From Eremomyces bilateralis CBS 781.70 (lineage: Eukaryota; Ascomycota; Dothideomycetes; Eremomycetales; Eremomycetaceae): 64,000 bases of DNA. The stretch covers positions 15,812 to 79,811 of the forward strand of contig NW_022985089.1 in NCBI RefSeq assembly GCF_010015585.1, written 5' to 3'. Positions 2,694 to 33,658 of this stretch are shown piece after piece. The notes under the pieces were generated by a model. That model saw only the letters and a list, made by a program, of their open reading frames with translations. It did not search any database and was not told where the DNA came from. Each line of letters opens with the position of its first letter. Position 1 is the first letter of the stretch. The position numbers were made by a program, and so were the translations under genes.

Positions 2694-5345
2694 TTTCCAG
2701 TTCTCTGCAGTCAGCAATGAGACGACAGTTGCTTTCGTAGAATTCGAAGTCTTGTTAAATGCCGACTGTGAAGTTGGAGCAGAATGCCGCGATTTGAGGA
2801 CGAAGGTAGGGCCCTCTAGCTGATTTAATCCTCGATGTCGAGGTTGTCTGTGTGACTGCTAGAGATATGCGGCTTCGTCACATATCACATCTTGCCTTCC
2901 GCTGTTAGACAAAGCGGAATCTTAATGGTAGATCCCAACCCTAGCAGACTGGCCAATCCAAAGCTGTATCTTTGCATTGGGCTACGCCACAATTTCAGCC
3001 TTGCATACCAAACACAGGAATTGTAGCCTTGCGCTATTTTAAGCTGTATCGGCTCCAGCAACGAACGGGAGACCCTGCTCATCGAACCATTCAGCCAATC
3101 GATGCCTCTGTTTTCGCGCTCGTGTACGCCGTAGTTTCAACCTTGAGAGGGATGCACTGAGTCTTGTCCAACTGGCAAAGTCGAGGCTGGATGGTCCTAA
3201 AGTCCTGTTACCCTGCAATGAAAACCTAATTAACTAAATTGTTGAAACGTTATAAAAACAACTCGTCTCTGTCATGATGGAGTCGCTCCAGCGACTAGCA
3301 CAATCCCTGACCGGAAGGGATCATGCGGATACGAACTGCGGCACGCAAATCGGAGCTAAAAATGGGAATATTGAGAACAACTTCTAACCCTACCTAGCAG
3401 GTCCCTGTTCCTTTCCGTAGCTATCCTGCTGCTAATATTAGTCCACTAAGGAAAGCGTATCGCGACCAAGTTAACTTAAACGATAGTATCGCGGAGGTGC
3501 CAATATAGTCAGCAGGGAACATTTCACCCCTCTTTATAGCCCACGCGAAATAAGACTCTCACTTCTCGCAATATCAAGGCCGGTTTGTTCCCATGTAACC
3601 CGGATAGGGTGCCCCGAGATATCCAGAAGCTGCCTGCTGGATTGACCATTCGACAACCGATGTGTTACCAGGATATTACTGTAAGAAGGAACGAGCGAGT
3701 CGTGCTGCGAAAACAGCTGCAGGGACTCCAGAAAAACGGGTCAGAAGCGTAAAAGCACTGCGCCAGCGGGAACAAAGCCAAAAAGCCACGGAGGAGCGAA
3801 GTGGAAACTGCTAAGAACGACATTGCCGTAGGAGGGATGGCGAATTACTGCTCTTTCTTCCACCGCGAAGATGAAACCCTTTGATACTGGCCAGAAGGGC
3901 AGGCGCTCGCATTGTGATCCTTTGCCGTAGAGGATAAGTTTAGCATTCATCAGGATTTGGGGCAAAGACGTATAATCAAACATTATTCTAAGTCGATTGT
4001 ATGACGTCTTCCAGCATTCGCTACTGTATACACATCTCATTAGCTGTGGTAGGAAGTGGTGATATTGCTGGGGCTGGTTCTTCGTTCGTCTACACAGGAA
4101 TCCGTGATGTTGCTGGGCTGAGACGCTCGTTCCTGAATATAGGGAAGCCGCAAGAATCACCCAAGAGCGTTAGTCTGCCAAGCCCAAGCTTAGGGAGATT
4201 CACATGGCAACTTGGTAATTTACAATGAAATATTTGTGTCGTAATCACGTGATGTATAGATCGCAGAATGCGGAAGTTTAACCTAACGCAAGTACCGACC
4301 TACGTGGTGGAAATATTTATAATCGCTTCCAACACAACGTATGCTGCAGACAGAGAATCCTTAACATGATAATAGGATTTGTGTGGCTTTGATTTATTTG
4401 TTCATGTCCTTTACAAAAGGAAAATCGATGATGGTGGCGTTATATCATAGAAATATCGTTGCGGAGTCTAATGCTCATATCACGCTCTCTATAGAAAATC
4501 AATCATCTATCAGCCAAGCTACTGTAATTTTAAGGTAGACACGATCAAGGATAATGGCAAGTGGTCTAAGAGTACAGTTTCCAATAATTATAAGAATTTC
4601 AGTGCGTCTGGAGACTCTAAGTTAGATTGAAGTCAAAGTACCTTGAGTTCGTTCCAGCATGGCGGGTGTTCCATCACGTAGGGGGGGAGGTTAGTCAAGA
4701 AAGTGCTTAACCGACCTGGGAATCCAGAAATAGCAAGACTAGGAAGCACAAGAATATTAATCATTCATAGCGGAGGAAGATGACTGAGCGGTCCGTCAAG
4801 AATGATAAAGTTAAAACAGGGCCAAGAATATGGCATGGGTCGGTCGAAATAGCTTCCCAGAGCACCTTGTTCAGGGTCAATTTACTATGTAGTTTCCGGT
4901 TGTCGTCCGAACTGCGATACCAACCAGATCCGCAGATTGGTGCTAGTCCATACCTTGGCATTATTATTTATGCCAAGGTATGGACTAGCGGAAATTGGCA
5001 AATATTTCCACCAATAAGTGGAGACCAGAATCCCACATCCCTGCCACTGGGAAGCTATGGCTACCCTAGCGGGAGGGTAAGTGGCTCATACAAATTGATC
5101 GCGAGTCTACGGTACAGGTACTTGGGGCATATAGGAAATCACTGCTAGCCATAGAGTATATGGTACAATAAGCATGAATTTAAAGACTGGCTCTAGAGGA
5201 CGGCAATTCATTATGACTAGCTTTTCCTGCTCAATCATTTATCACTCCTCCCAAACACCAACTTCCGTCAACTTCCAGCGCTCTCGTCAAGCTAATACAC
5301 ACTCCACAGTATGGAAATAAGGATATCCACCTTCCCATTGCATAC
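2694..5345. other. Gene-poor stretch with one perfect hairpin
   Basis: No coding region with recognisable motifs or convincing splice structure was found. A 139-codon open frame on the minus strand (3741-4160) has no recognisable domain and a biased composition, so I do not call it. The only clear structure is the inverted repeat at 4942-4989. Confidence 0.5.
4942..4989. repeat. Perfect hairpin, 20-bp arms, 8-nt loop
   Basis: Positions 4942-4961 are the exact reverse complement of 4970-4989; the outermost bases beyond the arms do not pair. The core of each arm is CCTTGGCA / TGCCAAGG. It lies in non-coding DNA. A weaker hairpin with a similar core is at about 21741-21778. Confidence 0.9.
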
Positions 5346-26990: not shown

Positions 26991-27361
26991 TTAATACCTG
27001 CGAGATTTCCATACTACGAAAGATGAAAGCGTTTGGCAGTATCAGGGAGAGTTATCGCACTGTCGCTCATGGGCTCCCGGTGGAGAGCGTGGTGGCATGG
27101 ATTGAGCCACATTGCGGCGGCCGGCAGAATCATTAGCCTTCGCCGATCGGTGATGGTGGTGACCCATGGCCATATGGTTTAATGTAGTGCCATAGGTGTG
27201 TGATATGCAATCCAATCAGGATGTGGACCGCTTAGAGCCCCTGGGGGCTCTAAGCGGTCCACATCCTGATTGGACTCCTTCATATTTCCGTTCTGTGAAA
27301 TAGAGCATGGCCTACGAGCCTTCTCATCATCAACTTCTCGCTCCTTCATGCTGCAAACAAA
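26991..27361. other. Divergent promoter region with perfect palindrome
   Basis: Lies between the membrane-protein gene (minus) and the 27362 gene (plus). It contains the 64-bp palindrome at 27211-27274, roughly 90-150 bp before the ATG at 27362. Confidence 0.6.
27211..27274. repeat. Perfect 64-bp palindrome, 31-bp arms, 2-nt centre
   Basis: Bases 27211-27241 are the exact reverse complement of 27244-27274 around the centre TG. Flanking bases do not pair. Arms run TCCAATCAGG at the outside to GAGCCCC at the centre. It is likely within the 5' leader or promoter of the plus-strand gene. Confidence 0.95.
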
Positions 27362-31561: not shown

Positions 31562-31949
31562 ATGCAGATAACAGAATGTTAAATCTATGCCAGAAGTGTT
31601 GGTGCTCGACTTCAAAATCGTTCAGGGAGGAAAGTCCAAATAGGATCAGAACGCCGACAAAGCCTAGCCCCTTAGCCGGGCATATGTTTTGCCGAGCGAC
31701 ACAGACCATCCAATTGGGCGTGGAACAGCCTCAACAGGCAACAGCCTTGTAGTGCCTTCATGCCCCACCGACTAACGCCACAAGCAGATGTGAATTCGTC
31801 GTCGTAAAAAACTGCTGTCCATCATCACGTGACACTGTCATTGTGAGGGTATAAGAACATAGCAATTTTCCTGCTTCTCAACTGTGTTGTCTAGGCTGGT
31901 TAAATTCTAATCCCTACACAAACATGGCATTAGTCGGTATCCGTGCCCC
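31562..31949. other. Intergenic region and 5' leader of the RPA12-like gene
   Basis: No gene. The last 13 bp belong to the left arm of the palindrome at 31937-31999. An upstream ATG at 31924 is out of frame with the RPA12-like gene. Confidence 0.5.
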
Positions 31950-31999
31950 ATGGCCGCCCCACAACCAGAGGTTGTGGGGCGGCCATGGGGCACGGATAC
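31937..31999. repeat. Perfect palindrome, 30-bp arms, 3-nt loop, over the RPA12-like start codon
   Basis: Bases 31937-31966 are the exact reverse complement of 31970-31999 around the loop AGA. Both arms are GC-rich and each contains CCATGG. The ATG of the downstream gene (31950) sits in the left arm. In RNA this would form a very stable stem over the start codon. Confidence 0.95.
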
Positions 32000-32454
32000 T
32001 GTCCTCTTTTGTACCAGTTGTGGGAGTATACTGGATCGGCATTCTCCTGAAAAAACGACGATCACTTGTAATGTTTGCCATAGCCTGAATAAAAGTGAGC
32101 TTGATTCAATCCACGTTCTGTTTTCACTGCTAAGCTTAAGTGTAGATAACTGGCCCACCTCTGTTACAACTAAATCCAAACCTGATGCTTTCCCGTCGGC
32201 TCTCCTGCAAAAGCGGAGTGTGGTAAATCAAACGATGAATTTGGAAGATGCACAAACTTGGCCGTCGACGTCTCAATCATGCCCCTCCTGTAATAATCCG
32301 ACGATGTGGTTCAAAGACGTTCAATTACGTAGTGCAGACGAAGGGACCACAATCTTTTACCATTGTCCCAGATGCAATCACAGGTATGAAAGACTGCAAA
32401 TCTCCCTTAAGCTATAATGTTCTAATATTTCAAAGATACAATTCCGATAATTGA
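31950..32454 (+). CDS. RPA12: DNA-directed RNA polymerase I subunit RPA12-like
   Basis: Three exons (31950-32094, 32146-32383, 32436-32454) with introns of 51 and 52 nt give 133 aa, close to the family's roughly 120-125. The N-terminal zinc ribbon is FCTSCGSILD ... TCNVC. The linker KPDAFPSAL is typical. The C-terminal TFIIS-type ribbon is CPSCNN, the RNA-cleavage loop QLRSADEGTTIFYHC and CPRCNHRYNSDN. Using the second intron restores the usual short C-terminus after HRY. RPA12 gives Pol I its transcript-cleavage activity in the nucleolus. Oddly, residues 1-16 are encoded entirely by the palindrome, so the N-terminus is about 12 residues longer than expected, and no alternative in-frame ATG exists close by. 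Confidence 0.85.
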
Positions 32455-33079: not shown

Positions 33080-33658
33080 CGTGTGGCGGATCCGCTTATG
33101 CGGGACGAGCCTTAGCACTATTCTAGCTCCCGTACGAGCGCTTAGCCCGTATATACAATAGGATAATAATCTATAGTCTCGTGCGGCCGATCCATCAACG
33201 CGGGACGAGCCTTAGGCTCTCGCATGGCGCAGGTTCCCGTGTGGCCGAAAAAATCCACGCTCGCGTGCGGGCGCTTCGCCCGTATCGACAAGCAAGCCAA
33301 TGGTTCGGGCGGCAGATTGTGCCGTGCGGCGGATCCGCTCATGTGGACGAGCCTTAGCACTATTCCATCTCCCGTGCGAGCGCTTAGCCCGCGTACACAA
33401 TAGGACAAACCAAGCCACAGTCTCGTGCCGTCGTGCGGCGGATCCGCTCATGCGGACGAGCCTTAGCACTATTCCAGCTCCCGTACGAGCGCTTAGCCCA
33501 TGTACACAATAGGAGAAAACAAGCCACAGTCTCGCGTCGTCGTGCGGCGAATTCTTCGACATGGGCTGAGCCATGCTCTCGGCGGATCGAGCGCCAAGAC
33601 TGTCCTAGTCCTATTGTGTACGCGGACTAAGCGCTCGTACGGGAGCTGGAATAGTGCT
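33080..33658. repeat. Ladder of about 109-bp units with an inverted terminal copy
   Basis: Recognisable units start at about 33080, 33187 (diverged, with an insert), 33324, 33432 and 33541 (broken). Landmarks in each are CGGCGGATCCGC, GACGAGCCTTAGCACTATTC, GAGCGCTTAGCCC and CACAATAGG. At 33609-33658 the same landmarks occur as reverse complement. The strongest units (33324 and 33432) differ by few bases. It encodes nothing convincing. Confidence 0.85.

Follow-up and report, generated by a model that had tools for sequence, protein, structure and literature searches.

How does a perfect palindrome come to lie across the start codon of an RPA12-like gene, and what becomes of the gene behind it? 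The question is raised by a 64,000-nt stretch of the Eremomyces bilateralis genome (the window; C23:15812-79811), which we compared with its own assembly of 26.6 Mb in 62 contigs. A first-pass annotation of the window had described a perfect 63-bp palindrome with 30-bp arms and a 3-nt loop, and the description is exact: the arms at 31937-31966 and 31970-31999 are complementary at 30/30 positions around the loop AGA. It had also stated that the palindrome encodes residues 1-16 of the protein and that no in-frame ATG lies upstream. Both statements agree with the open reading frame (ORF) from ATG 31950, whose residues 1-16 fall wholly inside the palindrome; the ORF listing gives 31950 as the frame's first ATG/GTG/TTG after a stop. 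As origins, an inverted duplication, an assembly artefact or a new 5' control had been considered. Here we argue that the palindrome, judged by its sequence, is a transposon scar formed by two joined terminal inverted repeats (TIRs), and that it is most likely no artefact of assembly and no dedicated control element.

A scan of the window for inverted repeats (perfect arms of at least 12, loops of 0-60 nt) found five (arms 31, 30, 20, 12 and 12), among which 31937-31999 ranks second by arm length, while first-order Markov surrogates (n=5) held at most one each, with an arm of 12. The longest is a palindrome at 27211-27274 with 31-bp arms and a 2-nt loop TG; searched against the own genome it matched only itself, and neither a target-site duplication in its flanks nor a transposon source was found. 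The third, at 4942-4989 (20-bp arms, 8-nt loop TATTATTT), likewise matched only itself in the own genome. Just downstream of the RPA12-like gene, 33114-33658 is occupied by GC-rich repeat units, possibly another repeat family: inverted arms of about 50 bp lie within this interval, and 33323-33549 is a 109-bp tandem array.

A Fot1/pogo-type element and its insertion site

A search of the assembly with 31900-32420 as query gave 47 matches. Apart from the window and a paralogous gene on contig C16, they were 29-54 bp long and fell on the palindrome, and pairs of such TIR matches lie 1.85-1.87 kb apart on C17, C2, C26, C52 and C3. Fifteen regions were compared, one of them the C16 paralogue and the other 14 loci of the element, and the TIR end TA-TCCGTGCCCCATG... 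recurs in 14/14 of these loci, themselves picked by TIR similarity, with at most 5 mismatches of 41. The copies on C17, C2 and C26 are identical to one another over 1,910 bp, the TA at both ends included, and each carries the same intact 563-aa transposase ORF. Its protein matches DDE_1 (PF03184, E 6e-22) and the CENP-B/Tc5-type helix HTH_Tnp_Tc5 (PF03221, E 1.2e-15), and its triad, with residues picked by eye, is of the DD35D kind, 35 residues separating the second and third D. The two ends of the C17 copy do not differ within their first 59 nt, TA included, and each TIR holds a small hairpin of its own with a 9-bp stem and a 3-nt loop (CCCACAACC-nnn-GGTTGTGGG).

By its domains, DD35D triad, TIRs and TA target, the source is assigned to the Fot1/pogo-type transposons as an element of 1.9 kb. 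DD35D is given for pogo groups 33-40, with Fot1 placed in clade 37 (PMC7325037), and for Sclerotinia elements of 1.8-2.0 kb are described for which HTH_Tnp_Tc5 and HTH_psq are named (PMC4188875). The source element thus shares its length of about 1.9 kb, TIRs, TA target, HTH_Tnp_Tc5 with DDE_1, and DD35D with the Fot1/pogo-type DNA transposons of fungi, whereas HTH_psq found no match in the protein of the full-length copy at E 0.001 in the same profile search. What sets the copy at 31940-31996 apart from them is its reduction to 27 bp per end plus a loop.

Where, then, did the element enter? The C16 paralogue (reverse strand, start 243498) reads ACC ATG GCA CTG GTC GGT ACC GTC CTC TTT TGT, and the window reads AAC ATG GCA TTA GTC GG-TA-[57 bp]-TA-C TGT CCT CTT TTG. 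The uninterrupted ACCATGGCACTGGTCGGTACCGTCCTC of C16 therefore stands against AACATGGCATTAGTCGG-TA[57 bp]TA-CTGTCCTC, a single TA against a TA on both sides of the remnant; C16 is a paralogue of 81% nucleotide identity and not an allele or orthologue, and what carries the comparison is the close agreement of both flanks. Removal of 59 bp, that is the element and one TA, gives MALVGTVLFCTSCGSILD, colinear with MALVGTVLFC of C16 and MTSIGSCVFC of a further RPA12-like locus on C5. The palindrome reaches its 63 bp because the outer bases of the GTAC target, G and C, happen to pair; it can be divided as follows.

31937..31999, no strand: 63-bp palindrome, composed of the 57-bp double-TIR remnant, the flanking TAs and the outer G/C of the GTAC target
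31938..31939, no strand: left TA of the target-site duplication; a single TA (GGTACC) in the C16 paralogue
31940..31996, no strand: collapsed Fot1/pogo-type element, 57 bp, its loop AGA standing between 27-bp stretches of the two TIRs
31967..31969, no strand: loop AGA, shared with the right TIR of the full-length C17, C2, C26 and C52 copies
31997..31998, no strand: right TA of the target-site duplication, from comparison with the C16 paralogue and from the deletion product

These observations bear directly on the origins considered earlier. Perfect palindromes can arise by template switch, and a fold-back mutation of local sequence with no transposition would find some company in the palindrome at 27211-27274, in the same window and with no second copy found. 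Here, however, each arm has TIR counterparts elsewhere, and on both sides the sequence continues into that of the uninterrupted paralogue, with the TA duplicated. A template-switch duplication of local DNA is rejected, the arms being dispersed TIRs, and we give this origin practically no credence. The inverted duplication of the first-pass annotation has to be given up on the same observation: the arms are the two TIRs of an inserted, collapsed transposon and not duplicated local sequence. Perfect palindromes are also a known artefact class, but an inverted chimera from assembly or library would not be expected to produce a TIR pair with TA duplication at an otherwise colinear site, which makes an artefact extremely unlikely. 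For a new, dedicated 5' control we found nothing in support, and a regulatory effect as such may still exist.

Collapse to a double TIR

How did an element of 1.9 kb shrink to 57 bp? In a full-length copy CCCACAACC is present twice, once per TIR, and deleting in silico between these repeats removes 1,849 bp and leaves a 61-bp product. This was done for five copies with both ends (C17, C2, C26, C52 and C3), of a family with further copies and fragments, for example on C24, C7 and at C12:577124. The products of C17, C2 and C26 equal window positions 31938-31998 with 0 mismatches, and the C52 copy yields the same 61-bp sequence from either of its two repeat pairs; the diverged C3 copy gives a product with 3 mismatches to the window, so that the deletion is exact in 4/5 copies. 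Because each TIR holds its own hairpin, such a collapse results in a perfect palindrome. Joining at the alternative repeat GGTTGTGGG left 3 mismatches in C17, C2 and C26. Self-primed fold-back synthesis from the hairpin of the right TIR also gives the exact product in 4/5 copies (from the left TIR in 1/5), and either repair route may have operated.

Microhomology-flanked internal deletions of mariner-type elements have been attributed to abortive gap repair after excision (PMC5490172). The collapse at 31940-31996 resembles the internally deleted elements and MITEs described there for an aphid mariner, in which two ends are kept and the interior is lost at direct-repeat microhomology. It differs in that the present remnant is 57 bp long, was found in one copy, is a perfect palindrome and has no amplified miniature family. 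Could the 57-bp unit nevertheless be a self-standing minimal MITE that jumped as such? Both ends are present, with a TA on either side. Siblings would be expected, though, and a zero-mismatch genome search for the palindromic junction CGCCCCACAACCNNNGGTTGTGGGGCG found it at only two places, the window locus and C12:88333-88359, the latter within a longer, differently deleted copy; diverged siblings could be missed by such a search. The unit thus shows no sign of belonging to a multi-copy, length-homogeneous non-autonomous family, which is what defines a MITE, and we hold an independent jump to be very improbable.

At C12:88333-88359 a 15-bp fold-back at the same TIR hairpin is followed by a jump into the element interior, in a diverged longer copy. 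The region C12:88316-89074 is a deleted copy of the same transposon, which after the 15-bp fold-back jumps to element position ~1198. This copy suggests that repair errors can recur at the TIR hairpin.

The gene behind the insertion

The first-pass annotation had called the gene RPA12-like, and the best PDB matches are indeed chains named RPA12 (7aoc_I and 4c2m_I), which we take to be the S. pombe and S. cerevisiae proteins. It had placed the gene end at 32417; given two introns, predicted from splice consensus and from their same positions in three paralogues, the end moves to 32454, and the ORF from 31950 comprises 133 aa. The gene model and the frame of the upstream ATG are as follows.

31924..32088, + strand: ancestral start codon; its reading frame now comprises 54 codons plus a stop, leaves the frame of the gene after codon 5 and terminates upstream of intron 1
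31950..32094, + strand: first exon of the RPA12-like ORF as it now stands, the TIRs encoding residues 1-16
32095..32145, + strand: predicted intron 1, 51 nt, GTGAGC..GTGTAG; 52 nt in C16
32146..32383, + strand: exon 2, between the predicted introns
32384..32435, + strand: predicted intron 2, 52 nt, GTATGA..TTCAAAG
32436..32454, + strand: exon 3 and stop, C-terminus HRYNSDN (C16 YRFNTNN; C5 HSWNTNN)

Behind the insertion the coding sequence is intact. The C-terminal TFIIS-type zinc ribbon is present (PF01096, E 1.9e-14), with the acidic RSADEG loop and the cysteines kept in the alignment. The N-terminal ribbon is recognized from the alignment with the RPA12 chains and its invariant CxxC pairs, its Pfam match PF02150 being sub-threshold (E 0.039, 14.3 bits against a cut-off of 25.2). 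In these features the gene resembles the RPA12 subunit of RNA polymerase I; it differs in being one of at least three such loci and in having its N-terminus replaced by TIR-encoded residues.

The genome of 26.6 Mb contains at least three RPA12-like loci, C5:234019-234513, C16:243066-243498 and the window copy at 31924-32454. A weaker match with 35% identity lies at C9:36554-36748. The C16 and window copies are diverged paralogues, their predicted intron positions being common to C5, and C16 has RGADEG instead of RSADEG. A reading of C16 as a frameshifted pseudogene was dropped when its apparent 1-bp shift and TAG vanished upon removal of the two short introns. The window protein is 76% identical to C16 and 43% to C5, and the C16 and C23 proteins agree at 89/118 aligned columns. 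Over 117 codons the dN/dS of this pair is 0.13/0.65 = 0.20 by NG86 (bootstrap 0.10-0.34, 300 resamples) and 0.14/0.52 = 0.27 by YN00, which points to constraint on both copies for much of their separate history. The C5 protein matches an RPA12 chain end to end (E 8.6e-30); its gene looks intact and is probably the RPA12 orthologue, a likelier one than the window copy.

Which start codon did the window copy use before the insertion? In alignments with the two PDB chains named RPA12, residue 1 of the C16 and C5 proteins falls on residue 1 of the chain, whereas the window ORF joins in only at its residue 17, corresponding to RPA12 residue 6. For this reason ATG 31924 is, on the alignments, the ancestral start codon. 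That RPA12 orthologues start about a dozen residues later, as had been noted, fits the N-terminal extension of 11 residues relative to C16. ATG 31924 does precede 31950 out of frame, as also noted, but it is no incidental upstream distraction, as the C16 and C5 paralogues show it to be the original start. The net insertion of 59 bp is 3n+2 and puts ATG 31924 out of frame, and it bears out the proposal that the gene start was rewired, with the palindrome supplying the present in-frame ATG.

Could splicing rescue the old frame? Among 12 enumerated GT..AG pairs of at least 35 nt, with donors at 31925-31999 and acceptors no further than 32059, the frame of ATG 31924 is restored by 5, and no plausible single intron keeps it together with the whole zinc ribbon. 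Splicing of the palindrome as one intron was rejected as a way back to the old start: of the 5, a 38-nt candidate has the non-consensus donor GTCGGT, and the other four, of 44-56 nt (donors GTTGTG/GTGGGG), would remove at least one of the two cysteines in the first CxxC.

Expression and the course of events

Both AUGs have G at +4, but position -3 is A for AUG 31924 and C for AUG 31950, and the latter sits inside the stem. The palindrome hairpin has a predicted -68.7 kcal/mol and begins 13 nt after AUG 31924, and folding of the 151-nt context gives a z of -10.2. In Arabidopsis and human cells, stems downstream of an upstream AUG improved its recognition and lowered downstream translation, with stems of 12-20 bp and -19.9 to -34.1 kcal/mol (PMC10499604). 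The arrangement of AUG 31924 with a stem 13 nt later is alike. It differs in its longer and stronger stem (30 bp, -69 kcal/mol at 31937), the stems given in that report being weaker, and in that the upstream AUG is the gene's own former start. With AUG 31924 upstream, in better context and followed by a stable hairpin, most ribosomes would be expected on the 54-codon peptide, and most translation would run out of frame if the transcript begins upstream of 31924. A TATAAG at 31850 would fit such a start and is weak evidence for it; no TATA[AT]A was found in 31601-31960. The insertion thus probably lowers or abolishes expression of the window paralogue. Since C5 carries an RPA12-looking gene, the cell can probably spare this copy, and the paralogue is probably dispensable.

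An alternative is that the TIR-supplied AUG 31950 is in real use, through a transcript start after 31926 or leaky scanning, and yields an extended RPA12-like protein. The ORF spans both zinc-ribbon regions with RSADEG kept, the dN/dS values of the C16-C23 pair would fit a functional gene, and a transcript starting at 31927-31949 would have AUG 31950 as its first AUG. Against this stand the upstream AUG with its better context and the C at -3 of a codon buried in the stem. Moreover, no difference yet separates the remnant from the product of the youngest transposon copies, so the insertion is probably recent; selection has probably had only a short time to act on the new frame, and the constraint seen between C16 and C23 says little about the time after insertion. 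A protein with the 16-residue TIR-encoded N-terminus is a weaker alternative, unlikely though of some weight, and ranks below loss of expression. It is improbable, and a speculation, that the cell now makes use of the collapsed element, whose ends would provide the paralogue's start codon, a new 16-residue N-terminus and a switch of upstream AUG and hairpin on which translation would depend; the transcribed TIR hairpin could then also feed small RNAs directed against the young family.

With loss of expression as the preferred outcome, we infer the following course. A Fot1/pogo-type element would have inserted at the TA spanning codons 5 and 6 (GGT ACT), duplicating the TA. Later it was probably excised with incomplete repair of the break, its ends being joined through the 9-bp CCCACAACC/GGTTGTGGG hairpin of each TIR, whereby about 1.85 kb would have been deleted and the 57-bp perfect double-TIR palindrome left behind. 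The 59-bp net insertion would throw the ancestral AUG 31924 out of frame, and the CCATGG of the TIR would by chance give ATG 31950 in the frame of the gene, creating on paper an ORF with a TIR-encoded N-terminus. Most ribosomes would make the out-of-frame peptide, with probable loss or strong reduction of function. That an element of this type inserted into the RPA12 paralogue and then collapsed to a 57-bp double TIR, with this probable effect on function, we regard as highly probable.

A collapsed transposon is an event of a kind already known, and the present example is unusually tidy. Our literature search found, among the matches listed, none describing a collapsed Fot1/pogo element that supplies a start codon, which does not prove that such a case is absent. 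The locus offers a clear small case of a DNA transposon rewriting the start of a gene, in which the insertion site, the target duplication, the uninterrupted paralogue, the young source copies and the exact microhomology deletion are all readable from one genome. It also carries a warning for gene finders: choosing the longest ORF leads here to a start codon that looks secure but consists of transposon DNA and is probably misleading.
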